Positions 10,914 through 22,700 of a stretch of 34,053 nt of DNA are shown piece after piece. The position numbers were made by a program, and so were the translations under genes. Origin of the DNA: Phycisphaerae bacterium (lineage in GTDB: Bacteria; Planctomycetota; Phycisphaerae; Phycisphaerales; SM1A02); contig VGXL01000015.1 in the NCBI GenBank assembly GCA_016873315.1, positions 1-34,053 of the forward strand, given 5' to 3'. Every line of letters starts with the position of its first letter. Within the stretch, counting starts at the first letter, position 1. Below the pieces are notes generated by a model. That model searched no databases, was not told the DNA's origin, and saw only the letters and a list, made by a program, of their open reading frames with translations.

Positions 10914-12668
10914 ATGGCCATGACCACCGACACGCCATCCGGGATGAGCGGACTTCGAGCTGCGTGGACACAACGGGGCGTGGCTGCTGCCGGTGGATCG
11001 CTCGTGCAGCGGCTCATGGCCGCGCGCGGCGTGAGTTCGACGGACCAAGATCGATATCTCAAGGCAGGGCTGGCGGACCTGCGGCCTGCACGCGAACTTC
11101 CCGGGGCGACCGATGCCGCCGCGTTGATCCTTGCGCACGCGCGGGGCGGACGGCGCATCGTGGTGCTCGGCGACTACGACGTCGACGGCACGGCCGCAGC
11201 GGCCACCTTACGACACACGCTGCGTGCGATCGCGCCCGGCGTTGACCTGATCATCGATATCCCGCACCGCGCCGATGGCTACGGACTGACCGATGACGCA
11301 GTCGAACGCATGCTCACGCTGCGGCCGTCGCTCGTGATCGCCGTCGACTGTGGTATCACCGCCGTATCGCAGGTCGCCGCGCTGCGGGCAGCTGGGCTTG
11401 ATGTGGCAGTGCTCGATCACCACGCGCTGCGATCCGATGGCGCGTTGCCCAACGCCTCGGTGATCGCGCATCCTGAGCGGCCTGATGCCGACTACGGCAA
11501 CCCCGACCTGTGCGCGTGCGCGGTCACCTGGAAGGTCTGTTGCGAGATCATGCGCTTGCACGCCGGCGAGAGCATGAACGGCGAGCTGCGCAAGCAGTTG
11601 GCGCAACTCCTGCCGCTTGCCGCGATCGCCAGCGTGGCGGATGTGATCCCGATCCAAGGCGAAACGCGCATCATCATTCGGCAGGGTCTCGAGTGGTTCC
11701 GATCCACGGATCTGCCGGGCCTTCGGATCATCGCCGAGCGCATCGCCGATGTGGGCAAGGTGCACAGCCAGGGCGTGGCCTTTGGCATCGTGCCGGTCCT
11801 CAACGCGGCAGGCCGCATGGGTCATGCTGGCGTGTGTGCGGAACTGCTCGGATTGACCGCGAGCGAGCCTGGCGCGCGCGATCGCGCGGCCGCAATCATC
11901 GACGAACTCAAGAAGTTGAATGTCGAACGCAAGATCGTGCAGCAGCAGGTCAGTGAGCAGGTCTTGGCGACGATCGCACGCGAAGGGCTCGACCAGGGCG
12001 ATCCGACTGCGGTCGTCCTAGCCAACGCAGCGTGGCCGCACGCGCTGGTGGGCATCATCGCGGCCAAGGTCATCGAACAGACCGGCCGCCCGGCGCTGCT
12101 TGGGCATGTGCAGCCCGATGGTCGGGTCAAGTGCAGTGGCCGCTCTGTCAACGGATGGGACATCGGCGCGGCGATCGGTCGCTGCAGTGAGTGGTTGGAG
12201 TCAGGCGGCGGTCACCCGATGGCTGCGGGTGCCACGGTCCGTGCGGGTGCGTTCGATGCGTTCGCTGCGGCACTGCGGGCCGATGCGTCGGCCGCATTCG
12301 CCGGTCGCTCGCTCAAGGCTTCTTTGCCTTGGGATGCGCAGGCCACCATTCGCGAAGTGGACTGTCCGTCCATCGATGCGCTTCAGGCGTGTGGCCCGTT
12401 CGGCCAAGCCAATCCGATGCCGACCTTTCGATTTCAGGGTTGTCGCTTGGCCAGCGATGCAGTGCACATGAAGCCTGGCAGCCCACATCTTCGACTGTCC
12501 GTGGCTCAGGACGGCGCGCGGATCGATGGCGTTTGGTTCGGTGCGGGCGATCTGGCAACACGACTGCGGCGCGGCGTGCCGTGCGATGTGCTCGCCGAAG
12601 TGACCGTGGATGAATGGAACGGGCGTCGAACGCCCAAGCTCTTGGTCCGCGACATCAGCTTGGCGTGA
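10914..12668 (+). CDS. recJ: Single-stranded-DNA-specific exonuclease RecJ
   Basis: A 5'-3' single-strand DNA exonuclease used in recombination and mismatch/base-excision repair. The 584-residue product carries the DHH phosphoesterase metal motifs in order: DYDVDG (87-92), DCG (145-147), DHH (168-170) and ASVADV (239-244). NAAGRMGHA follows at about 298-305. The DHHA1 half carries GGGHPMAAG (431-439), and a C-terminal OB-fold region follows. The start is the first ATG, supported by TAGGCT 6 nt upstream; a second ATG two codons later is possible. The length matches compact bacterial RecJ proteins. The 3' end overlaps the convergent UDP-sugar pyrophosphorylase gene by 14 nt. All manganese ligands appear intact, so it should be active. 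Confidence 0.95.
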   Translation: MAMTTDTPSGMSGLRAAWTQRGVAAAGGSLVQRLMAARGVSSTDQDRYLKAGLADLRPARELPGATDAAALILAHARGGRRIVVLGDYDVDGTAAAATLRHTLRAIAPGVDLIIDIPHRADGYGLTDDAVERMLTLRPSLVIAVDCGITAVSQVAALRAAGLDVAVLDHHALRSDGALPNASVIAHPERPDADYGNPDLCACAVTWKVCCEIMRLHAGESMNGELRKQLAQLLPLAAIASVADVIPIQGETRIIIRQGLEWFRSTDLPGLRIIAERIADVGKVHSQGVAFGIVPVLNAAGRMGHAGVCAELLGLTASEPGARDRAAAIIDELKKLNVERKIVQQQVSEQVLATIAREGLDQGDPTAVVLANAAWPHALVGIIAAKVIEQTGRPALLGHVQPDGRVKCSGRSVNGWDIGAAIGRCSEWLESGGGHPMAAGATVRAGAFDAFAAALRADASAAFAGRSLKASLPWDAQATIREVDCPSIDALQACGPFGQANPMPTFRFQGCRLASDAVHMKPGSPHLRLSVAQDGARIDGVWFGAGDLATRLRRGVPCDVLAEVTVDEWNGRRTPKLLVRDISLA

Positions 12669-14070
12669 TCGCCAGCGCCGCGCCGCGTTCGATCGCGCGC
12701 GGCACCAAGTTCGTACACGCGGCTTCACACCCCGCAGCCAAGGGCGAGAGTTCGATCGTGCAGTCCGGCGAACCGTCAGCGAGGCGGGGGATCGACCAGC
12801 CCGCCGACTCGAGCCAGCGTGCGGCGCGTGCGACCTGCGCCGCGATGCTCGTGACCGGGCTGTCGTCGCCGTCGGCGTTCTTGATGGGAGCGAACTCCTC
12901 GGCGCGATCGGTCTCAAGGACCAGACTCGACTGTGCCATCGGAATCGCATCGAAGACGAAGGTCTCCATCTTGATGGCGTTGGGCGTCGTCGGATCCACG
13001 CGGATGCCGTCGTCGCCGATGTGCGGCACCTTCTTGCGCGCCTTGTGCAGCGGGAGCGCCAAGCCGTGCGCAGTCAGGCGCTCCACGAATTCGCGCGAGA
13101 GCATGTGGATCGCGATGCTCCCGGCGTCGAAGCGCAATCGACCATCCCCGTCGCGCTCGGCCGCGAGTGACGCGGGCAAATCGCTGTACTCAACCACCAT
13201 GGTGCGGCCCGCGGATGCACAGAACACGCCGACCTTCTCGGCGGCGTCGCGCTTGGCGACCATCTTGCTCGTCATCTCACCGCTCGAGCTTGGGTGCGCG
13301 GCGTGCACACCGACGAAGATCGGATCGACCGCATGGACGAGCGGATTGTCAACCTGGAAGTAGCTGATGTGCTCGATGCCGTGGGCGCGCATGTCATCGA
13401 GCGCACCCGAGTGGCGAAGCGCGCGCAGCGAACCGCCGTGGCCGTCTGGATTCACCGCAAGTTCATCGGGCTCGGCGAGCAGCAGCCGCCCGTCGAGCGA
13501 GAGCGAGGGCAGCGTGCCCTGAGGGAAGAACATCACGGTGTCCGCACCAAGGCCGAAGTGATCGTGGCGAACGAAGAACTCGCGCGTTGGCGCGTCGTTC
13601 ATCGGGCTCGTCATGATGTACCAGCGGATCATCGCGCCAAAGCGCTGTCGTGCTGCGCGGATCTGCTCGGCGAAGACTTGAAAGAGCGGCGCTCGCGTGA
13701 TCGGGGTGGCGGGGAAGGTGCCCTTGGGAGCATCCCAACCCAGTCGCGTGCCTTGGCCGCCAGCGACCATGAAGCACGCGACTTTGCCCGCGCGGACGAG
13801 CGCCTCGCCGTGTGCGCTCCACGCCGCATCGACCTGCGCCCGGCGAACGATCGTGGCTGGAGCAAGATCCGCCGGCAGCACAAAGCCACCGTCATCGTCG
13901 AGTGCCGCAGCGAGCGCATCGACCTGTTCGAGCGAGAGCGCATCGACCTGATCGAGCAGACGATCGAGCCGCACGGGATCCAAGTTCGCTGCATGGCCGA
14001 GCACATGCTCCTGACCATGGCCGGCGAGCCGCTCACGGGCCCGCTCCAGACGCGATGCGAGCGTGGTCAT
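12655..14070 (-). CDS. UDP-sugar pyrophosphorylase, UAP/AGX-type (UTP--GlcNAc-1-P or UTP--Glc-1-P uridylyltransferase)
   Basis: Predicted to join UTP to a hexose 1-phosphate, giving UDP-GlcNAc or UDP-glucose in the cytoplasm. The 471-residue protein belongs to the UDPGP family typical of eukaryotic UAP1/AGX1, not to the bacterial GlmU or GalU folds. It has the nucleotide loop AGGQGTRLGWDAPKG (about 103-117), NPDGHGG (about 207-213), YFQVDNPL (about 237-244) and a late EEFAPIKNADGDDSP segment with the conserved Lys. The start is ATG 14070, whose ATGA overlaps the phoU stop by 4 nt; an upstream GTG would add 9 residues inside phoU. Coupling to phoU is therefore likely. The 3' end overlaps recJ. 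The sugar cannot be decided from motifs alone; a hexose-phosphate mutase encoded at 22.7-24.1 kb could supply the substrate. Confidence 0.87.
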   Translation of the reverse strand: MTTLASRLERARERLAGHGQEHVLGHAANLDPVRLDRLLDQVDALSLEQVDALAAALDDDGGFVLPADLAPATIVRRAQVDAAWSAHGEALVRAGKVACFMVAGGQGTRLGWDAPKGTFPATPITRAPLFQVFAEQIRAARQRFGAMIRWYIMTSPMNDAPTREFFVRHDHFGLGADTVMFFPQGTLPSLSLDGRLLLAEPDELAVNPDGHGGSLRALRHSGALDDMRAHGIEHISYFQVDNPLVHAVDPIFVGVHAAHPSSSGEMTSKMVAKRDAAEKVGVFCASAGRTMVVEYSDLPASLAAERDGDGRLRFDAGSIAIHMLSREFVERLTAHGLALPLHKARKKVPHIGDDGIRVDPTTPNAIKMETFVFDAIPMAQSSLVLETDRAEEFAPIKNADGDDSPVTSIAAQVARAARWLESAGWSIPRLADGSPDCTIELSPLAAGCEAACTNLVPRAIERGAALAITPS

Positions 14071-14744
14071 GGCCGCGGGCGCTCGGGCTCGGACCAACCT
14101 TCGGGACGGTGGCGGACGATCTTGCCGGTCTCGACATAGATCACCTGCTCGCAGATGTTCGTGCAGTGGTCGGCGATGCGCTCGACGCTTCGCGTGACGC
14201 TGGTCAACTGGAACGCGAAGCGCACGCTGAACTGACCCAGGGCAACTTGCTCCTGCGCGTGGAGCAGGATCTCGTTCTTGAAACGATCGACGGTGTCATC
14301 GAAGAGCAGCACCTGGCGAGCCAAGTCGGGATTACCGGTGACGAGCGCGCGATTGGAATCACGCAGCATGCCGAGCACCGAATTGGCCATGACCCGGAAG
14401 GTGGGTGGGATTCGCTCGTCCATGCGAGCTTGTCCGGCGACCTGCTCGGCGATGTTGACCGCGCAGTCGGCGATGCGCTCGAGTTCGTTGTTGACCTTCA
14501 CGATCGTGAGCACGCTGCGCACTTGGTATTCGTCGGAGTTGCCCATTTGGAGCAGCGGGATGCTGGCGCGCTCGATTTCGACGTCGGCCTTGTCGATCCC
14601 ATCGTCCGCGGCGATGACCGCACGCGCCTTGGTCTGGTCGTACTCGAAGTAGCACTCGGTGGCGAGCGAGCAGCACTCGAGGACGCGTTCACCCTGCGCG
14701 GTGATGTCGGAACGAAGCTGCTCAAGTCGTGCGGCGAAAGCCAT
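14067..14744 (-). CDS. phoU: Phosphate signalling protein PhoU
   Basis: Adaptor that damps phosphate-starvation signalling and phosphate uptake in the cytoplasm. The protein has 225 residues and two three-helix repeats, each with the PhoU metal-binding signature: ERIADCAVNIAE (89-100) and ERIADHCTNICE (188-199). A hydrophilic tail of about 20 residues follows. TATCCT lies exactly 6 nt upstream of the ATG. The gene sits between cysC (35 nt upstream, same strand) and the UDP-sugar pyrophosphorylase (4-nt overlap). No pstSCAB or phoR/phoB is in the window, so this is a PhoU away from its classical operon. A polyphosphate kinase is encoded about 10 kb away, a functional but not positional link. 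Confidence 0.92.
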   Translation of the reverse strand: MAFAARLEQLRSDITAQGERVLECCSLATECYFEYDQTKARAVIAADDGIDKADVEIERASIPLLQMGNSDEYQVRSVLTIVKVNNELERIADCAVNIAEQVAGQARMDERIPPTFRVMANSVLGMLRDSNRALVTGNPDLARQVLLFDDTVDRFKNEILLHAQEQVALGQFSVRFAFQLTSVTRSVERIADHCTNICEQVIYVETGKIVRHRPEGWSEPERPRP

Positions 14745-14750
14745 GGTCGT

Positions 14751-14756
14751 AGGATA
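14751..14756 (-). promoter_or_regulatory. Putative -10 hexamer of phoU (TATCCT)
   Basis: On the minus strand TATCCT is followed by 6 nt and the phoU ATG. It would drive phoU and the overlapping pyrophosphorylase gene separately from cysC. No -35 is obvious. Confidence 0.45.
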
Positions 14757-14779
14757 CCCGCGCGCTTACACCCGGCGGC

Positions 14780-15391
14780 TTACGCAGAGCGGATCAGCCG
14801 TTGCGCGAGTGCCACCACCGAGGCCACGCAGGAGTCGATCGAGGCGGCGTCGGTGGCCAAACGGAGTTCGGGTGTTGTCGGTGCCTCGTACGGATCACTC
14901 ACGCCGGTGAAGCGCTCGAGTTCGCCAGCGCGTGCTCGTCGATAGAGACCTTTGGGATCCCGCGATTCCGCCACGGCCAGCGGAGCATCGACATGGATGA
15001 GGGCGAAGGCGACTCCACTCGCGTCGTGACGCGCCCGCACGCGTGCCCGATCGGCTTCATAGGGACTCACCAAGCTCACGATCGCGACGGCGCCTGAGGC
15101 GGCAACGAGCAGCGCGGCCTCGCCGGCGCGGCGAACGGCCTCGGCGCGTCCAGCCTCATCGAATCCCAGTCCCGCGCTCAGACCATGACGGAGGTTGTCG
15201 CCATCCAGGACCATTGCGGGAACGCCGATGGCGAGCAGCGCGCGCTCAGCCGCGATCGCGATCGTGCTCTTGCCCGCACCGCTGAGTCCGGTCATCCAGA
15301 TTGTGCACCCTGCGCGGCCGAGCGCCGCGCCGCGCTCGGCGGGCGTGGCGGCTCCATGCTGCCAGACGACGTTGGACGAGGCGCCATCCAT
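14780..15391 (-). CDS. cysC: Adenylylsulfate (APS) kinase
   Basis: Phosphorylates APS to PAPS in sulfate activation. The 203-residue protein has the complete motif set: P-loop GLSGAGKST (35-43), [10 protein letters not shown] (62-71), LVSP with Ser at about 109, [20 protein letters not shown] (144-163) and DPYEAP. The frame is open upstream but this ATG is the family start; an alternative ATG lies two codons in. It is divergent from cysD, the start codons being separated by 40 nt. This intact stand-alone kinase contrasts with the decayed kinase-like domain at the end of CysN next door, so it is presumably the working APS kinase. PAPS could serve either assimilation or sulfation of glycans; the window does not show which. 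Confidence 0.93.
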
Positions 15392-15401
15392 CGATGCGCG
15401 G

Positions 15402-15407
15402 ACGCTA
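15402..15407 (-). promoter_or_regulatory. Putative -10 hexamer of cysC (TAGCGT)
   Basis: On the minus strand TAGCGT lies 10 nt before the cysC ATG, inside the 40-nt space shared with cysD. It is weaker than its neighbours in spacing, so the call is tentative. Confidence 0.3.
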
Positions 15408-15417
15408 GCACATCGTC

Positions 15418-15423
15418 TAGGCT
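15418..15423 (+). promoter_or_regulatory. Putative -10 hexamer of cysD (TAGGCT)
   Basis: TAGGCT is followed by 8 nt and the cysD ATG, with no Shine-Dalgarno sequence. The same hexamer precedes recJ. Confidence 0.4.
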
Positions 15424-15431
15424 TTGGTCGC

Positions 15432-16337
15432 ATGGCGCGTGGCCTGACCCATCTGGACGAGCTCGAAGCCGAGTCGATCCACATCCTGCGCGAGACCGCC
15501 GCGAGCTTCGAGCGGCCCGTCCTGATGTACTCGATCGGCAAGGACTCGACGGTGCTGCTGCATCTGGCGCTGAAGGCGTTCGCGCCCGGCCGGCTTCCGT
15601 TCCCTGTTCTGCATGTCGATACGACCTGGAAGTTCCGCGAGATGATCGCGTTCCGCGATGCGACGGCAGCGCGGCTTGGACTCGACCTGCAGGTGCACAT
15701 CAATCGTGATGGGCTCGCACAGGGCATTTCGCCGATCACGCATGGCAGCAAGGTCCACACCGATGTCATGAAGACGGTCGCGCTGCGCCAGGCGCTCACG
15801 GCTGGCCGATTCGACGCCGCGATTGGCGGCGCGCGACGGGACGAGGAGAAGAGCCGCGCGAAGGAACGCATCTTTTCGTTCCGCGATGCGAACCACCGAT
15901 GGGATCCCAAGGGTCAGCGTCCGGAGCTTTGGTCGCTCTACAACTCGCGCGTCCATCCGGGCGAGAGCATGCGGGTCTTCCCGCTCTCCAACTGGACTGA
16001 GCTCGATGTCTGGCTCTATGTGTGGAAGCACCGGCTGCCGGTCGTCGATCTCTACCTTGCGCGAAATCGGCCGGTCGTCGAGCGCGACGGCGCGCTCATC
16101 ATGGTCGACGATGATCGTCTGCCGCTCAAGGCGGGCGAGCGCATCGTGCAGCGCCGCGTGCGGTTTCGCACGCTCGGCTGCTACCCGCTCTCGGGCGCGA
16201 TCGAGAGCGATGCCGACACGCTGGAGAAGGTCATCGAGGAAATGCTGCTCGCGCGCACGAGCGAGCGTCAGGGGCGCCTGATCGATCATGACCAGAGCGG
16301 CAGCATGGAAGAGAAGAAGCGCGAGGGGTACTTCTGA
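15432..16337 (+). CDS. cysD: Sulfate adenylyltransferase subunit 2 (CysD)
   Basis: Catalytic subunit of ATP sulfurylase, making APS from ATP and sulfate together with CysN. The 301-residue product begins [17 protein letters not shown] and has the PP-loop MYSIGKDST (about 32-40). [38 protein letters not shown] and the end [10 protein letters not shown] are all characteristic of CysD. The start is chosen by family alignment and the TAGGCT element 8 nt upstream; the frame itself is open for 79 more codons. Its TGA overlaps the cysN ATG by one base (TGATG), indicating translational coupling of the two subunits. Confidence 0.96.
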
Positions 16338-18151
16338 TGACCCTTCCCACCTTCACCGCCGGCGAGGATCTGCGCGGATGGATTGAGCGTTACGAGCGGC
16401 TTCAGCTCCTGCGCGTGCTGACCTGCGGCAATGTCGATGACGGGAAGAGCACGCTCATCGGCCGGCTCTTGCACGACACTGGGCGCATCTACGACGATCA
16501 CCTGAAGGCGCTCGAGGCCGACAGCCGCGTGCACGGCACCACGGGCGGCGGACTCGATCTGGCGCTCGTCGTCGATGGCCTGAAAGCGGAGCGCGAGCAG
16601 GGGATCACGATCGATGTCGCGTGGCGGTACTTCACGACGGCCCGCCGCGCTTTCATCATCGCTGATTGCCCGGGCCACGAGCAATACACGCGCAACATGG
16701 CGACGGGCGCGAGCCACTGTCAGTTGGCGATCAGCCTGATCGATGCGCGCTCGGGCGTGACCACGCAGACGCGTCGGCACGCCACGATCGCCGCCATGCT
16801 CGGCATCCGTCATGTCGTCGCCGCAGTGAACAAGATGGATCTGGTCGATTGGAGCGAGACGCGGTTCCGAGAGATCGAGTCGGAGTTCTTGGCGTTCTGC
16901 TCGCGCTTGGGAATCGAGCACGCGGTCGCGCTGCCCGTCAGTGCGCTCACTGGTGAGGGCGTCGTCCGACGGACGGAGGTCATGCCCTGGTTCAGTGGCC
17001 CGGCGCTGCTTGAGTTGCTTGAGCGTGTCGACCTTCCTGGACCGAGCGGCGCGGACCCGTTCCGCATGCCGGTGCAGACGGTCCTTCGGCCCAACCTTGA
17101 CTTTCGTGGCTTCGCAGGCCAGATCACCAGCGGTGATGTGGCGGTGGGCGACCGCGTGCGCATCATGCCACGAGGCACCGAGGCACGCGTGGCGCGCCTC
17201 GCTCGGCCCGACGAGTTTGGAGGCGACCTTGAACGCGCCCAGGCGCCCGAAAGCGTCGTGATCTGTCTCGATCGTGAAGTCGACTGCAGTCGCGGTGATG
17301 TGATCGCGTGCTTCGGCGGGGCCAGCGACATGCGCGTGGGCCGACGCATTGTGGCAGACCTCGTGTGGATGGTCGATGCTCCGCTCGTGGCTGGACAGAG
17401 CCTGCTCTGCAGAGTTGGAACACGCATCACGCCGGCGCGCGTGGTGCGCATGATCCACCGACTCAAAGTCGACACGCTTGCGCACGAATCGGCTGAGTCG
17501 ATGGTGCTCAACGACATCGGCCGCGTGGAGTTGGAGTGCGAGGAACCGGTGGCCTTCGATCCATACCGCGTCTCGCGCGGCACCGGTGCGATCGTCCTGA
17601 TCGATCGCTTGACCAACGCCACGGCTGCGGCAGGCATGATCCGTACGGGCGATCCGACCGAACGCGGCGCTCACTGGGATGACCAGGCGCTCGAGACGGT
17701 GTCGTCGCCAGTCAGTGGTGTGTCCGCAGCCGAACGCGATGCGCGTTGGGCGCAGCGGCCATGCTGCGTGCTGCTGCATGGTCCGCCCAACACAGGCAAG
17801 ACCGAAGCAGCGTTCGCGCTTGAGCGCGCGCTCTGGGATCTTGGCCATGATGCCGTCGTGCTCGATGGTCAAGGCATGCGCAGCGGGCTCTCGAAGGATC
17901 TTCGCTTCGAGCCTGGCGATCGCAGCGAGAACCTGCGTCGCGCCGCCGAGGTCGCTCGGCTGCTCATGGAACAAGGGCGCGTGGTCATCATGTCGTTCGT
18001 CGCGCCGCAGGATCATGTTCGCGAGCGCGCGCGGGCTTTGCTCGGTCCGGACCGCTGCCTCTTCGTGCACGCAAGCGACGGCTTCGAGATCTCCAACATC
18101 GTTGCCCAACTCGCCTCGCGCGGTTTGATCGGTCGCCGAACCGCTCCCTGA
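16337..18151 (+). CDS. cysN: Sulfate adenylyltransferase subunit 1 (CysN) with a degenerate APS-kinase-like C-terminal domain
   Basis: GTPase subunit that drives ATP sulfurylase. Residues about 20-440 form an EF-Tu-like GTPase and two beta-barrel domains: GNVDDGKSTLIGRL (31-44), DCPGH (110-114) and NKMD (165-168), all intact. Residues about 476-604 align with APS kinase in CysNC fusions, but key positions have changed. The P-loop reads GPPNTGKT, DGDN has become DGQG (510-513), the ISP serine has become FVAP (554-557), and the RDPKGLY to FTG lid block is missing. The chain ends about 45 residues early for a CysC domain. The kinase half is therefore probably inactive, while CysN function should persist. 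cysD overlaps by 1 nt and pdxJ follows after 9 nt. Confidence 0.93.
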   Translation: MTLPTFTAGEDLRGWIERYERLQLLRVLTCGNVDDGKSTLIGRLLHDTGRIYDDHLKALEADSRVHGTTGGGLDLALVVDGLKAEREQGITIDVAWRYFTTARRAFIIADCPGHEQYTRNMATGASHCQLAISLIDARSGVTTQTRRHATIAAMLGIRHVVAAVNKMDLVDWSETRFREIESEFLAFCSRLGIEHAVALPVSALTGEGVVRRTEVMPWFSGPALLELLERVDLPGPSGADPFRMPVQTVLRPNLDFRGFAGQITSGDVAVGDRVRIMPRGTEARVARLARPDEFGGDLERAQAPESVVICLDREVDCSRGDVIACFGGASDMRVGRRIVADLVWMVDAPLVAGQSLLCRVGTRITPARVVRMIHRLKVDTLAHESAESMVLNDIGRVELECEEPVAFDPYRVSRGTGAIVLIDRLTNATAAAGMIRTGDPTERGAHWDDQALETVSSPVSGVSAAERDARWAQRPCCVLLHGPPNTGKTEAAFALERALWDLGHDAVVLDGQGMRSGLSKDLRFEPGDRSENLRRAAEVARLLMEQGRVVIMSFVAPQDHVRERARALLGPDRCLFVHASDGFEISNIVAQLASRGLIGRRTAP

Positions 18152-18160
18152 GGCCAGCGC

Positions 18161-18907
18161 ATGATCGAACTCGGATGCAACATCGATCACGTCGCCACCG
18201 TGCGCCAAGCGCGTCGCACCTGGGAGCCGTGCCCGGTGCAAGCCGCGCGCGAGGCGCTCGCCGGGGGCGCGGACCACATCACCGTCCACCTGCGCGAGGA
18301 TCGTCGGCACATTCAGGATCGTGATGTCGAGCGACTTCGAGCCGAGGTGCCGGCGCGACTGAACTTTGAAATGGCCGCGACCGACGAGATGGTCGAGATC
18401 GCCCTGCGGATCAAGCCCCAGCTCTGCATGCTGGTTCCCGAGGGTCGCTTCGAAGTCACGACCGAGGGCGGGCTCGATGTTGCGGGGCAGGAAGCCGCAC
18501 TGGCCGTGCAGGTGGCGCGGCTCCGACAGGCGGGCATCCTCGTGAGTGTCTTCATCGATGCGCTCCCGCATCAGATTGACGCCGCCCGACGGATCGGTGC
18601 CGGAGTGTGCGAGATCCACACCGGTCCCTACGCACACGCTTGGCACGATGAAGGTGGATTCGGGCCGCGGACGCGGGCCGAACTTGAACGCGTCGCGTCG
18701 GCCGGGCGCCACGCGTGCGCTGCCGGGCTCTGCTTCAACGCTGGGCACGCGCTGCACTACGAGAATGTCAAGCCCATCGCCGCGCTGCCGGGAATCCGCG
18801 AACTCCACATCGGGCACGCCATCGTGAGTCGAGCCGTCTTCACGGGTCTGCGTGAAGCGGTGCGTGAAATGAAAGCGCTCATGATCGAGGGCGCCTCGGG
18901 TCGCTGA
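18161..18907 (+). CDS. pdxJ: Pyridoxine 5'-phosphate synthase
   Basis: Condenses 1-deoxyxylulose 5-phosphate with 3-amino-2-oxopropyl phosphate in vitamin B6 synthesis. At 248 residues it has the usual length. The TIM-barrel landmarks are [12 protein letters not shown] (7-18), [13 protein letters not shown] (about 39-51), LNFEMA, and a late [14 protein letters not shown] segment with the phosphate-binding loop. The gene starts 9 nt after the cysN stop with no promoter-like hexamer of its own, so it is probably the third gene of the cysD unit. Its stop codon lies inside the first copy of a 30-bp direct repeat. No other B6 gene is present in the window. Confidence 0.95.
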
Positions 18908-18960
18908 TCGCTCGGCGCATTCGCCCTCGGTCGCTGATCGCTCGGCGCGGGCGGCCTTGG
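18901..18960. repeat. Imperfect 30-bp tandem duplication across the pdxJ stop codon
   Basis: TCGCTGATCGCTCGGCGC occurs at 18901-18918 and again at 18931-18948. The following 12 nt of each unit are partly alike, giving about 25 of 30 matching positions. Copy 1 contains the pdxJ TGA; copy 2 is intergenic, just before the dapA promoter element. It looks like a local duplication. Confidence 0.8.
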
Positions 18961-18964
18961 GTCG

Positions 18965-18970
18965 TACACT
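18965..18970 (+). promoter_or_regulatory. Putative -10 hexamer of dapA operon (TACACT)
   Basis: TACACT is followed by exactly 6 nt and the dapA ATG. It is the same hexamer and spacing as at tpiA. No Shine-Dalgarno sequence fits in the gap. Confidence 0.5.
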
Positions 18971-18976
18971 TGCGGC

Positions 18977-19891
18977 ATGCCACGGATCCTCGGCACCTAC
19001 ACCGCCATCGTCACGCCATTCTCCAACACGGATGGCTCGATCGACCTCGCTCGCCTTGAAGACCACATTCGCTTCCAGGCTGCTGGTGGCGTCACCGGCA
19101 TCGTGCCGTGCGGTACGACTGGCGAAGCGCCCACGCTCAATGAGCGCGAGCAGGCGGCGGTCATCGAGACCTCGGTGCGCGTTGGCAAGCCGCTGGGCTT
19201 GCAGATCGTCGCCGGCACGGGGAGCAACTCGACTGAGCATGCCATCCATCTGCATCGATCGGCGCACGCCCTTGGCGCTGATCTCTCGTTGCAGGTTGCG
19301 CCGTACTACAACAAGCCCTCGCAGGAGGGGATCTACCGCCACTTCATGGCCGTGGCCGACAGCTGCAGTCTGCCGATCATGCTCTACAACATCCCCGGTC
19401 GCTGCGGCGTGGCAATCGCGCCTGAGACCGTCGAACGACTTGCTCGCCACCCCAACATCGTGGCGATCAAGGAAGCGACGGGCAGCATGGACAGCGCGAG
19501 CGAGATTCGTCAGCGCTGTGGGATCACGATCTTGTCCGGTGACGACACGCTGACGATCGCATTCGCGGCGGTCGGTGCGGTGGGCGTCGTCAGCGTGCTC
19601 AGCAACATCGTGCCCGAGCGCGTGGCAAGGCTGTGCTCGCTCATGCAGTCCAACGACTTCGCGGCTGCGCGCGGCGAGCATGCTTCGCTCTTTGCGCTCG
19701 CGCGCGGCCTGCTCACGATCGACACGAACCCCGCGCCGATCAAGGCGGCCATGCAGGTCTTGGGTCGCGAGAGCGGTGTGCTGCGATTGCCCATGTGCCC
19801 GCTGCCGGCGACTGGTCTGGCTCGTGTGCGTGATCTTCTGCGAGCAGTCGGACTCGAGCCCGCGGCGGACTTCGCCGGGGCGATCCAGTGA
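18977..19891 (+). CDS. dapA: 4-hydroxy-tetrahydrodipicolinate synthase
   Basis: Condenses pyruvate with aspartate semialdehyde, the first committed step to diaminopimelate and lysine. The 304-residue product has the DHDPS set: GTTGE (46-50), YYNKPSQEG (110-118), YNIPGR (137-142) and the Schiff-base Lys165 in IKEATGS. It begins with GTYTAIVTPF, as the family does. Diaminopimelate production is consistent with a peptidoglycan-containing cell. The stop overlaps the next start as GTGA (4 nt), so the Nudix gene is probably co-translated. The C-terminus extends slightly past the usual 290-295 residues. Confidence 0.96.
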   Translation: MPRILGTYTAIVTPFSNTDGSIDLARLEDHIRFQAAGGVTGIVPCGTTGEAPTLNEREQAAVIETSVRVGKPLGLQIVAGTGSNSTEHAIHLHRSAHALGADLSLQVAPYYNKPSQEGIYRHFMAVADSCSLPIMLYNIPGRCGVAIAPETVERLARHPNIVAIKEATGSMDSASEIRQRCGITILSGDDTLTIAFAAVGAVGVVSVLSNIVPERVARLCSLMQSNDFAAARGEHASLFALARGLLTIDTNPAPIKAAMQVLGRESGVLRLPMCPLPATGLARVRDLLRAVGLEPAADFAGAIQ

Positions 19892-20427
19892 ACGACATCG
19901 ATCACCCGCGCTACGAACCGACGGCGCTGCCGTACCGCGTGGCGGTGCTCGTCTACCTGTACGACCACGAGGGTCGGCTGCTCCTTCTGCATCGTCGCAA
20001 GGCTCCCAACGCCGGTCTGCACTCGCCGATCGGCGGGAAGGTCGAGATCAGCCTTGGCGAGAGCCCGCACGAGTGCGCGCGTCGCGAGGCGATCGAGGAG
20101 AGCGGCGTGGTCCTTGCCGACCGCGACCTGCGGCTGACCGGCATCGTCAACGAGCGCGCCTACCAGGGCGAGAAGCACTGGCTGATCTTCCTCTTCGAAG
20201 CCACACGACCGATCAGTCACGAGGAGGTGACCGCCTACGAGTTTGACGAGGGAACGCTCGTGTGGGTGCCCATCGCGGAGGTGGCGTCCATCGGCATCCC
20301 TGAAACCGATCGCACGATCATGTGGCCGAGCGTGCAGTCGCACCGCGGTGGCTTCTTCATGGTCGACATCGACTGCTCCGGTGGATCCATCGACCACCGT
20401 CTTGTCGAGAGTTGGAAGGCGCGATGA
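19888..20427 (+). CDS. Nudix hydrolase
   Basis: Predicted cytoplasmic Mg-dependent pyrophosphohydrolase of 179 residues; the substrate is unknown. The Nudix helix is clear: GE-x7-REAIEESGV (about 57-74) with the catalytic Glu pair. The loop before it, GKVEISLGE, has two extra residues compared with the classical G-x5-E spacing. The protein begins with GTG, overlapping the dapA stop by 4 nt. It ends with ATGA, overlapping the kinase start. The C-terminal part is family-variable (WPSVQSHRGGFFMVDIDC). The upstream extension of the fold (LYDHEGRLLLLHRRKAPNAG) is like 8-oxo-dGTP or nucleotide-sugar hydrolases, but no specific call is justified. Confidence 0.85.
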   Translation: MNDIDHPRYEPTALPYRVAVLVYLYDHEGRLLLLHRRKAPNAGLHSPIGGKVEISLGESPHECARREAIEESGVVLADRDLRLTGIVNERAYQGEKHWLIFLFEATRPISHEEVTAYEFDEGTLVWVPIAEVASIGIPETDRTIMWPSVQSHRGGFFMVDIDCSGGSIDHRLVESWKAR

Positions 20428-22700
20428 CGACGGGCTCCGGATCGCCGCAGGATCCGCCGCGCGAGCCAGCGCGGGAGCCGCTTCCGACTGATGCGACGAT
20501 CGATGCGGCGGGAAAGCACGCGCCGCCGTTGCACGCAGCGGACACGATTGCCCCGCAGCGCATCGATCAGCCCCCGGTCTGTGACGGTCGTCAGGGATCG
20601 GCGCCGAGTCCTGAGCCCAGCGTCTCGCTGCGTGACTCGGTCGCTGCCGCGATCCGCGCCGCACGCGAGAAGTCTGGCGAGTGGATCGGGCCGTACCTCT
20701 TGGTCGAGCCCTTGGGCGAGGGTGGTTTCGGTGCGGTCTGGCATGCCGAGCGTCGCGAGCCGTATGTCCAGCATGTGGCGTTGAAGCTCATTCGCGCGGG
20801 CATGGATTCCGAGAGCGTGCTGTTGCGATTTGAGCAGGAGCGACAGGCGCTCGCGCTCATGGACCACCCGAACATCGCTCGCGTGCTCGACGGCGGCGTC
20901 ACGCCGTCCGGGCGGCCGTGGTTTGCCATGGAGTTCGTGAAGGGTGAGCCCATCACGGCGTACTGCGAGCGCCACTGCCTTGGGTTGCACGAACGGCTTG
21001 AACTCTTCCTGCAGGTGTGCGACGCCGTCCAGCACGCGCACATGCGCGGGATCATTCACCGTGATCTCAAGCCCGCCAACATTCTCGTGAGCGAGCGCGA
21101 TGGTGCTGGAGCTGTCGCCAAAGTCATTGACTTCGGCATTGCCAAGGCGCTCTCGTCGCGGCTTGCGGATCACGGCGCACAGACCGGCATCGGGCAGATG
21201 ATCGGCACGCCGGAGTACATGAGCCCCGAGCAGGCTGAGCCCGACGCGACCGACATCGACACGCGCGCGGATGTCTTTGCGCTTGGCGTGGTGCTCTACG
21301 AACTGCTCGTGGGTGCCACGCCGTTCGATCCAAAAGTGCTTCGCGCGCAGGGATTCCAGCACATCCAACGCACGATCCGCGAAGTCGATCCGCCGTCGCC
21401 GAGCGTGCGGCTGACGACGCTGGCGCGCCAGGATCCAGAGATGCGCGAGCGCATGGAGCGCGCGATGCGCCGTCGCATCGATGAACTCGCCCGGCACCTG
21501 CGATCGGAACTCGAGCTCATTCCGCTGAAGGCCATGCGCAAGCAGCGCGAGGATCGGTACGCGAGCGCCAGTGATCTGGCGCTGGATGTGCGCAACTACC
21601 TGTGTGGGCGACCGCTCCTGGCGGTGCCGGAGAGCCGCGCGTACCGAGCTCGAAAGTGGGTCCGCCGTCATCGTGGTCTGGTTGCCGGGGCGTCGGCGGT
21701 CCTCATTGCGCTCGTCATGGGATTGATCGTGTCGCTCGTCGGTTGGCGCGAGGCTGCCCTGCAGCGCACGCAGGCCGAGCGACGCGAGCGCGACGCGACA
21801 CGCGTGATGGAGTTCATGACGCAGACGCTTGCTGGCGCGAATCCGATGGATGGTGGGAGCGCCGATGTTTCGCTCGCCGACGCGCTCGATGATGCCGTGC
21901 GCCGTCTGGACACGGGCGAACTGGCGGGGCATCTTGAGAGCGAGGCCGCGCTCAGGCTTGAGGTGGCGCGCGTGTTGCGGGGGCAGGGGGACCCTGCGCG
22001 GGCGGCTGCCCTGGCGCAGCAATCCGCGCATCTGTTCCTGGAGTTCGAGGGCCCGTCGCCGAGCGTGGCGGCGGCGCTGACCGAGCAAGGATTGGCGCTG
22101 CTCGATCAGGACGCCGCGGCCGCGGCGTTGCCGGTGTTGATGCGGGCGCTTGAAATCAACGAACAGGCGTTGGGGAAGGACGCCGCAGGCATCGTTGGCA
22201 ATCTTGCCAGCATTGCGCTCGCGCAGGCTGCACTTGGTCAGGTTGATCGCGCCATCGCGCTGCACGAGCGCGCTCTGTCGATCGCCGTCGCGGCGTATCC
22301 GGAGCAGCACGCAGTTGTTGCCGCGTGCATGGGCAACCTGGGGGACTTGCTTGCGACGATCAATCGGCTCGACGAAGCCGAATCCCTGCTCGCGCGATCG
22401 CTCCAGATGCGAGAGTCGCTTCTTGGTGGTGCGCATCCCGATGTCGCGGAAGCGCAGAACAACCTCGCGATGGTGCGCTGGGAGCGCGGCCAGCGCGGCG
22501 ATGCGGACCGGCTCTTCAATCTTGCGCTGGCGAACTACGACCGTTCGTATGGACCCGCGCACGAGTACACGCGGACCGTGCTGGAATCGCTGCGCGACCT
22601 GCATCGCGAGTGGGAAGCCGCCGAGCCCGGCAAGGGCCACGCCGCTGCGGCAGATTCGTTCGAGCGGCGGTTGCACACGCCGGTCCGGTCCGCCCCCTGA
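20424..22700 (+). CDS. Transmembrane Ser/Thr protein kinase with C-terminal TPR domain
   Basis: The 758-residue product is a Hanks-type kinase. An acidic, Pro-rich N-terminal segment (1-85) leads into the kinase domain (about 90-395). Visible are the Gly loop LGEGGFGAVW (97-106), the ATP-binding Lys in VALKLIRAG (121), HRDLKPAN (212-219), DFG (236-238) and GTPEYMSPEQA (261-271). One membrane helix follows (about 419-440). The remainder (about 450-740) is helical with TPR-like repeats, such as LGQVDRAIALHERAL and NRLDEAESLLARSLQM, presumably outside the cytoplasmic membrane. The start ATG overlaps the Nudix stop as ATGA. The catalytic residues are complete, so it should be active. This kinase-TM-TPR layout is common in planctomycetes; its substrate is unknown. 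Confidence 0.92.
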   Translation: MTTGSGSPQDPPREPAREPLPTDATIDAAGKHAPPLHAADTIAPQRIDQPPVCDGRQGSAPSPEPSVSLRDSVAAAIRAAREKSGEWIGPYLLVEPLGEGGFGAVWHAERREPYVQHVALKLIRAGMDSESVLLRFEQERQALALMDHPNIARVLDGGVTPSGRPWFAMEFVKGEPITAYCERHCLGLHERLELFLQVCDAVQHAHMRGIIHRDLKPANILVSERDGAGAVAKVIDFGIAKALSSRLADHGAQTGIGQMIGTPEYMSPEQAEPDATDIDTRADVFALGVVLYELLVGATPFDPKVLRAQGFQHIQRTIREVDPPSPSVRLTTLARQDPEMRERMERAMRRRIDELARHLRSELELIPLKAMRKQREDRYASASDLALDVRNYLCGRPLLAVPESRAYRARKWVRRHRGLVAGASAVLIALVMGLIVSLVGWREAALQRTQAERRERDATRVMEFMTQTLAGANPMDGGSADVSLADALDDAVRRLDTGELAGHLESEAALRLEVARVLRGQGDPARAAALAQQSAHLFLEFEGPSPSVAAALTEQGLALLDQDAAAAALPVLMRALEINEQALGKDAAGIVGNLASIALAQAALGQVDRAIALHERALSIAVAAYPEQHAVVAACMGNLGDLLATINRLDEAESLLARSLQMRESLLGGAHPDVAEAQNNLAMVRWERGQRGDADRLFNLALANYDRSYGPAHEYTRTVLESLRDLHREWEAAEPGKGHAAAADSFERRLHTPVRSAP

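Follow-up and report, generated by a model that had tools for sequence, protein, structure and literature searches.

The divergent sulfate-activation cluster considered here lies in a 34,053-nucleotide stretch of DNA from a Phycisphaerae bacterium (GenBank assembly GCA_016873315.1, contig VGXL01000015.1), hereafter the window. It consists of cysC on the minus strand and of cysD and cysN on the plus strand. CysN, the GTPase subunit of ATP sulfurylase, carries at its C-terminus a domain of the adenosine 5'-phosphosulfate (APS) kinase family in which residues of the reaction centre are missing. Whatever its job, this fused domain is very probably a retained non-catalytic module. It would represent an old offshoot of the APS-kinase family that became fused to CysN, lost its phosphotransfer activity and was retained in a different role.

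The domain fused to CysN and its locus

The homology of the fused domain to APS kinases is far beyond chance, because CysN residues 474-572 match positions 1-99 of the 152 in the Pfam profile PF01583 with an E-value of 2.6e-25 (89.7 bits, cut-off 21.1), and the domain used alone as a query matches human PAPSS2 with an E-value of 1.7e-18. An earlier note, made from the sequence alone, had aligned CysN residues 476-604 (17762-18148) with APS kinase, and these matches bear it out. Against TIGR00455, the curated equivalog model for APS kinase, the same domain scores 84.1 bits and fails to reach the cut-off of 138.7. Over the full length of CysN, the best NCBIfam model is PRK05506.1, which describes the bifunctional CysN/CysC protein. 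The domain order is indeed that of CysNC/NodQ proteins such as the one in Mycobacterium tuberculosis, but the score of 697.8 lies below the cut-off of 715 and catalytic residues are missing, so that CysN does not qualify as the bifunctional enzyme. As an ATP sulfurylase GTPase subunit, on the other hand, it scores 557.3 bits against TIGR02034, well above the cut-off of 336.1.

The motifs of the fused domain are the P-loop GPPNTGKT, DGQGMR, FEPGDRSENLRR and SFVAP. Visible in the sequence, as the earlier note had described, are the change of DGDN to DGQG, the replacement of the serine of ISP by alanine (FVAP) and a recognisable P-loop. The RDPKGLY...FTG lid block is likewise missing, as noted there, with the correction that the loss is an internal deletion and the last helix is still there. 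The final residues of CysN, IVAQLASRGLIGRR, correspond in alignments to the C-terminal helix found in full-length homologues (for example, VVELLQSRGLLG), and AlphaFold2 places a helix at this end in both the domain model (residues 143-152) and the full-length model (residues 585-594). A frameshift or assembly error behind the missing lid was rejected, as the domain is equally open in eight other genomes of the same genus.

A study of M. tuberculosis CysC assigns roles to many of the positions concerned (PMC4373884). There, Lys456 touches the beta- and gamma-phosphates, the lid residue Lys562 contacts the gamma-phosphate, and Arg559 stacks on the adenine of ATP. Asp480 is 3.6 Å away from the O3' of APS, the phosphosulfate is gripped by Arg483 and Arg497, and Phe492 is within a loop that moves upon APS binding (PMC4373884). 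In this numbering, the window's domain keeps the equivalents of Lys456 (K488), Arg483 (R515), Phe492 (F524) and Arg497 (R529), and lacks those of Asp480, Arg559 and Lys562. The two residues that define an active APS kinase here, the aspartate of DGDN and the lid lysine, are thus replaced by glutamine and removed by the deletion, respectively. Compared with stand-alone CysC enzymes of the TIGR00455 type, the fused domain shares the fold, the P-loop lysine and the phosphosulfate arginines, but lacks catalytic residues.

Structure prediction agrees with the earlier description of the domain as open and well ordered. With 57 homologues, AlphaFold2 models the domain with a mean predicted local distance difference test score (pLDDT) of 90.5 and a predicted template modelling score (pTM) of 0.84. 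The model superimposes on Arabidopsis APS kinase 3uie_A (VIA-align Z 21.5, root-mean-square deviation 1.7 over 141 residues) and on fungal ATP sulfurylase 1i2d_A (Z 17.1), and each of the best 30 structural rows from Foldseek and VIA-align is an APS kinase or an enzyme containing such a domain or one like it. In the full-length CysN model (mean pLDDT 86.2, pTM 0.69) the domain is again confident. The linker at residues 441-460 has a pLDDT of about 50, and the domain is therefore read as flexibly tethered. CysN has a solved chain, 1zun_B (434 residues), which matches residues 9-435 only, without the fused domain, and whose deposited name is 'subunit 1/adenylylsulfate kinase'.

The products of the other two genes of the cluster pass the cut-offs of their models (Table 1). 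CysD scores 504.2 bits against TIGR02039 (cut-off 396.6) and adjoins cysN, the cysD stop and the cysN start overlapping by one base. Stand-alone CysC scores 204.3 bits against TIGR00455 (cut-off 138.7) and contains DGDN, SP, RDPKGLY and FTG. Taking chosen ATG codons as the starts of cysC and cysD, the gap between these divergent genes is 40 bp, and the likely cysC start at 15391 is separated by about 0.95 kb from the start of cysN and by 2.4 kb from the fused domain, consistent with the intact cysC reported earlier at about 1 kb on the other strand. The fused domain and cysC are the two APS-kinase matches in the window's own genome at E-values up to 0.001.

Table 1. Positions in the window of the genes and features of the sulfate-activation cluster
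Feature	Position	Strand	Evidence
cysC, intact stand-alone APS kinase, likely ATG at 15391	14780..15391	-	TIGR00455, intact motifs
cysD, catalytic subunit of ATP sulfurylase, likely ATG at 15432	15432..16337	+	TIGR02039
cysN, 604 aa, GTPase subunit of ATP sulfurylase with C-terminal pseudo-APS-kinase domain	16337..18151	+	TIGR02034
GTPase and beta-barrel domains, CysN residues 1-440	16337..17656	+	Pfam GTP_EFTU, GTP-eEF1A_C; 1zun_B match 9-435
CysN linker, residues 441-462, predicted flexible	17657..17722	+	pLDDT ~50 at 441-460
Pseudo-APS-kinase domain, CysN residues 463-604	17723..18148	+	Pfam APS_kinase, AlphaFold2, VIA-align
P-loop GPPNTGKT, CysN residues 482-489, K488 kept	17780..17803	+	K in 58/58 aligned fused domains
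DGQGMR, CysN residues 510-515; DGDN aspartate lost, R515 kept	17864..17881	+	alignments
R529 of DRSENLRR, equivalent of M. tuberculosis CysC R497	17921..17923	+	invariant in 58/58 aligned fused domains
FVAP replacing (I/V)SP loop of CysN domain	17996..18007	+	alignments
Internal lid deletion site, then retained C-terminal helix (CysN residues 584-594)	18086..18118	+	alignments, AlphaFold2

The neighbourhood (12655-22700) holds ordinary genes for a UDPGP-family uridylyltransferase, PhoU, a member of the dihydrodipicolinate synthase family, a NUDIX protein and a protein kinase with TPR repeats, and PdxJ is encoded immediately after cysN. A 1131-residue open frame on the minus strand (16286-19681), lying opposite cysN, pdxJ and a portion of dapA, is probably a by-product of the high G+C content and no gene.

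One clade of decayed domains and the separate CysC

Relatives were searched with the whole CysN in the window's genome and 150 related genomes. The wider loci were the best 80 named loci of a broader scan, with motif states read for the fetched loci. In addition, 199 genomes from the phylum of Pseudomonas were surveyed, from which 60 of the listed long-frame matches were fetched and at least seven listed ones extending past residue 560 were left out. A claim that the decayed clade is bacteria-wide was rejected, the sampling being these 151 genomes, best 80 named loci and 199 genomes.

Strong CysN matches, 91-93% identical, occur in eight other same-genus genomes, and matches are weaker in more distant relatives. 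The fused domain is open and free of stops in all eight (in G003 it was read from a broken contig covering residues 205-602), and no truncation of the domain was found among the nine same-genus genomes. Among the genomes whose fused domain was read, it is decayed, meaning without the DGDN aspartate, in 43 and intact in five. These 43 and five genomes are related by descent and do not count as 48 independent cases.

In an unrooted, quick tree of 107 domains (49 decayed fused, five intact fused and 53 stand-alone), the decayed domains form one side of a split with a support of 100 in the Shimodaira-Hasegawa-like approximate likelihood ratio test. The split remains at 100 in an enlarged tree, also unrooted and quick, with 24 further intact CysNC fusions and four Pseudomonas-type rows. 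This clade includes domains from planctomycetes, from the Pseudomonas group (with DGQN or DGKV) and from actinobacteria (with DGEN), three of the four actinobacterial records being named Acidimicrobiales or Acidimicrobiaceae. Stand-alone CysC and the sampled intact fusions fall opposite it, and the window's domain groups with the fused domains that lack D480. It is this placement, together with the missing D480, K562 and lid, that separates the window's CysN from CysNC/NodQ proteins. Within the clade, the third position of DGDN has diversified to Q, R, E, T, H, A, K, G, S or M. A close comparison is with the DGQN-type domain of the Pseudomonas group, which shares the clade and the DGQ and FVAP substitutions, but differs in keeping the lid (mostly as RDPQGLY) and in lacking F492.

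The domain trees and the residue counts below omit the near-copies or broken rows G001, G002, G003, G005, G006, G007 and G148. Of the additional stand-alone CysC rows, roughly one third, picked at random, entered the 107-row tree and none the enlarged tree, which used 24 of the 45 intact and four of the eight decayed rows of the set from the phylum of Pseudomonas, without L315 and L316. The alignment of 58 fused domains leaves out G148, and a second alignment leaves out G003, G148, G083 and G080 as well as G008 and L036, in which a start motif was not found. An apparent independent lid loss in G148 was rejected as an artefact, since its contig ends inside the domain. Residues G540 and R543 were dropped as clade signatures because these positions shift with the alignment.

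The loss of catalysis looks old because the decayed clade spans Pseudomonas-group and actinobacterial domains and stands apart from the active forms sampled. On this evidence, catalysis would have been lost once, long ago, with the third DGDN position diversifying afterwards, and it is the lid deletion alone that is local to the window's lineage. A recent decay in the window's species was rejected on the grounds of the single clade and of the ratios of nonsynonymous to synonymous change (dN/dS) given below. The earlier suggestion of a pseudokinase that arose after a separate cysC took over therefore survives in part, in that a decayed domain does stand beside an intact cysC; the decay itself appears to belong to an older, single clade and not to the window's lineage.

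A separate CysC is present in 42 of the 43 genomes of the window's order that carry the decayed domain, the exception being G114, an assembly of 310 contigs that is 91% complete. In none of the five genomes with an intact fusion was there another APS-kinase match above 22 bits. Within the window's family, cysC is the oppositely oriented neighbour of cysDN in 28 of 30 decayed-form genomes (G003, G005, G006 and G083 being read from split contigs); in G032 and G033 the two sit on separate contigs. Elsewhere in the order, two of 13 genomes (G103 and G121) show this arrangement. The picture differs in the Pseudomonas group: among 13 genomes chosen from 69 such loci and searched for another APS kinase above 25 bits, none was found in eight, all with the decayed domain. 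Thus, the expectation that a dead domain goes with a separate CysC is upheld in the window's order, and as a strict rule it was rejected, failing in eight of these 13 genomes.

Two further arrangements were seen. At four of four actinobacterial loci (L038, L040, L041 and L046), a high-scoring APS-kinase match follows the DGEN domain on the same strand after about 160 bp. Stutzerimonas nosocomialis (G151) has, besides the decayed CysN, a further CysN-like frame whose APS kinase looks intact (L039, L212).

In the window's genus, the PAPS (3'-phosphoadenosine 5'-phosphosulfate) that is made probably feeds sulfation and not cysteine synthesis. This reading is based on the lack of a convincing CysH in the PF01507 search of the nine same-genus genomes and of the sulfite reductase domain PF01077 in the same nine, yet the presence of the sulfotransferase domain PF13469 in all nine (in G005 at just 28 bits). 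The PF01507 match in each of the nine is CysD, whole or in pieces; an extra match in G001 reaches 23.9 bits over 55 of 175 positions (cut-off 22.5). These draft genomes are 74-96% complete, so that genes may be missed, though hardly in all nine. Ten other tested genomes of the family have a single PF01507 match, and two genomes from other families of the order have two. By comparison, a CysH-like protein is found in all eight Pseudomonas-group genomes without a separate CysC, and in six of these it has the pattern CC, CEPC, ECGLH, which is presumably that of an APS reductase. In these six, therefore, no PAPS would be needed for sulfate reduction.

Residue retention and selection

The retention of residues in the decayed domains follows a clear pattern in M. 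tuberculosis numbering. D480 is found in all 58 active domains and in none of the 49 decayed ones, and K562 in 58 of 58 as against one of 49, the one being G095, where the lid is poorly aligned. The phosphate- and phosphosulfate-contacting residues K456, R483 and R497, on the other hand, are invariant in both sets (58/58 and 49/49), and R483 and R497 remain so (57/57) once eight further Pseudomonas-type domains are added. D478 is kept in 48 of the 49 decayed domains. Some positions have acquired a characteristic residue in the decayed clade. Position 468 is F in 52 of 57 decayed-clade rows and in 12 of 50 intact fusions, and position 512 is N in 52 of 57 such rows and in one of 53 stand-alone domains.

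Within the genus, selection was estimated from synonymous and nonsynonymous changes counted over 36 non-independent pairs of the nine genomes. The core of the domain (residues 473-575) has a dN/dS of 0.043, compared with 0.054 (0.041-0.071) for the GTPase part. Core and tail together give 0.068 (bootstrap 0.047-0.092), and the active CysC gives 0.061. The domain is thus under purifying selection, its core being held as tightly as the GTPase part. In the Pseudomonas group (69 loci), the domain has a value of 0.094 and the GTPase part 0.121, from 2116 of 2346 pairs, 230 with high synonymous divergence being omitted. In the genera g33 and g38, where dS is high, the values are 0.112 and 0.106. The earlier note had named a dN/dS near 1 or frequent truncation in relatives as signs against a kept domain. 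Neither is seen in the genus, but more widely the domain does erode, with lid deletions and with remnants lacking the P-loop.

These remnants come from the survey of the phylum of Pseudomonas. Of its 60 long CysN frames, 45 have both the DGDN aspartate and the lid lysine, eight are of the Pseudomonas type and seven have neither residue. Three of these seven (L313, L315 and L316) end in C-terminal remnants without a P-loop, the rest of CysN looking normal, and they match the decayed-clade profile at E-values of 1.9e-13 to 9.1e-10, as against 4.7e-4 to 0.02 for the active profile. L323, L320 and L321 are marginal cases, and L324 is unrelated.

Candidate roles of the fused domain

The loss of the reaction centre, combined with the retained contacts to phosphate and phosphosulfate, leads to the expectation that the domain binds sulfonucleotides without turning them over. 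On this basis, the pseudo-APS-kinase domain would be unable to phosphorylate APS, and PAPS would be made by the divergently transcribed CysC. The tethered domain may bind APS or PAPS, phosphate, or both, and by its position on CysN it may tune or channel the reaction of CysDN. A later deletion of the lid in the window's genus would have left an open, lidless pocket. Sulfonucleotide sensing is the preferred reading of its job, put forward tentatively and with a likelihood approaching, though not reaching, an even chance.

Precedent for such a conversion comes from fungi. The ATP sulfurylase of Penicillium chrysogenum belongs to another, GTP-independent family and its allosteric domain has lost the P-loop, whereas the carrier here is the GTPase CysN and the P-loop is kept. 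Common to the fungal domain (1i2d/1m8p) and the one described here is an APS-kinase fold on an ATP sulfurylase (PMC3734648; PMC13213808). In P. chrysogenum, the APS-kinase-like domain is reported to be inactive as a kinase and to confer allosteric control by PAPS (PMC3734648). By analogy, the dead APS kinases on GTP-driven ATP sulfurylases of several bacterial groups, including Pseudomonas, might form one old family that senses APS or PAPS and regulates CysDN, a broader proposal that is more doubtful than sensing by the window's domain.

Several observations weigh against sensing by an anciently inactivated domain. Just 40 of the 49 decayed domains keep F492, a residue of the APS site, and 44 keep the serine or threonine of the P-loop magnesium site, and the retention of R483 and R497 could be structural. 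The tail of the window's domain (residues 576-602) is less constrained than the core, with a dN/dS of 0.139 in the genus. A lidless domain is also without the residues that close over both nucleotides, and the full-length model, a monomer without CysD and with a low-confidence linker (pTM 0.69), shows no docking that would carry a signal. Because of the P-loop-less remnants, the idea that ligand binding was kept everywhere is weakened. As for a single, ancient loss, the decayed clade holds together at 87 (unstarred) once the catalytic columns are removed. In the tree built from the GTPase part, the five intact fusions fall among decayed ones (support 91, unstarred), so that a replacement of the domain or a re-fusion would have to be invoked. 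Furthermore, the CC motif is missing from the CysH-like proteins read, L266 (G157) and L267 (G155) of Pseudomonas argentinensis and P. straminea. This leaves room for a reductase that accepts APS or for a need for PAPS met by an active DGQN domain; G157 has one further, weaker CysH-like match.

The main rival to sensing is a role in assembly, in which the dead domain would dimerise with itself or with active CysC, hold the complex together and hand APS to CysC without binding a ligand of its own. This role is rather unlikely, although it could apply to the window's family, given the adjoining cysC. The frequent presence of a separate CysC in the window's order (42/43), the closeness of cysC to cysDN in the family (28/30) and, in all four actinobacterial genomes searched, an APS-kinase match that lies outside the CysN frame some 160 bp further downstream speak for this role. 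So do a fold predicted to stay intact without the lid and remnants that keep a helix and a strand without the P-loop. Positions 508 and 512, newly conserved, would lie near the dimer helix if the Entamoeba numbering is shifted simply by way of the P-loop lysine (PMC13213808). However, eight of the 13 Pseudomonas-group genomes retain the domain with no separate CysC found, and docking to CysC is therefore not its general role. The strict retention of K456, R483 and R497 would also be superfluous for docking.

Slow neutral decay, in which a dispensable domain lingers as a fold since misfolding on an essential protein is costly, is improbable. In its favour is the series from full-length dead domains through lidless ones to P-loop-less remnants. 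The lid was perhaps lost twice, the GTPase tree separating the cases and the domain tree (support 88) allowing for one loss. Opposed to neutral decay are a dN/dS of the domain close to the GTPase value in each of three separate sets, the invariance of two arginines and a lysine in 49 of 49 decayed domains and the positions whose commonest residue is new in the decayed clade. CysN proteins without such a domain do exist, arguing further against its lingering as a passive burden, though these four rows form a group apart that may never have had it.

A remaining APS kinase activity of the domain, be it weak or specialised, is very improbable. In its favour, the P-loop and APS-site arginines are kept, and the CysH-like proteins without CC in G155 and G157, where no other APS kinase was found, might need PAPS. 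Against it, the clade has lost D480 and K562, the window's domain has lost the whole lid, in which the single change Cys556Ser costs M. tuberculosis CysC its activity (PMC4373884), and six of the eight CysC-less Pseudomonas-group genomes show the presumed APS-reductase pattern, with no PAPS required for reduction.

Judged by titles and the beginnings of abstracts, the open-licence literature yielded no publication on a clade of dead APS kinases fused to CysN and no description of the Pseudomonas-group CysN domain as a pseudoenzyme. The kind of conversion is known from fungi, and the carrier, the clade and the lidless form are apparently new. If the domain is indeed a non-catalytic module, then in these bacteria family models score as APS kinase a domain that is none, and any metabolic model that credits such genomes with PAPS synthesis by CysN alone is wrong. 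It would be a second ATP sulfurylase with a converted fused APS kinase, and the natural series from intact to dead, lidless and remnant domains would bear on the question of how enzymes turn into regulators or scaffolds. As the Pseudomonas group carries a related domain, this question is approachable in ordinary laboratory strains. If these domains do form a family of sensors, they would be a bacterial counterpart of the fungal allosteric domain that arose on an unrelated ATP sulfurylase, and the lidless form in the window's genus would control a pathway that serves sulfation only.

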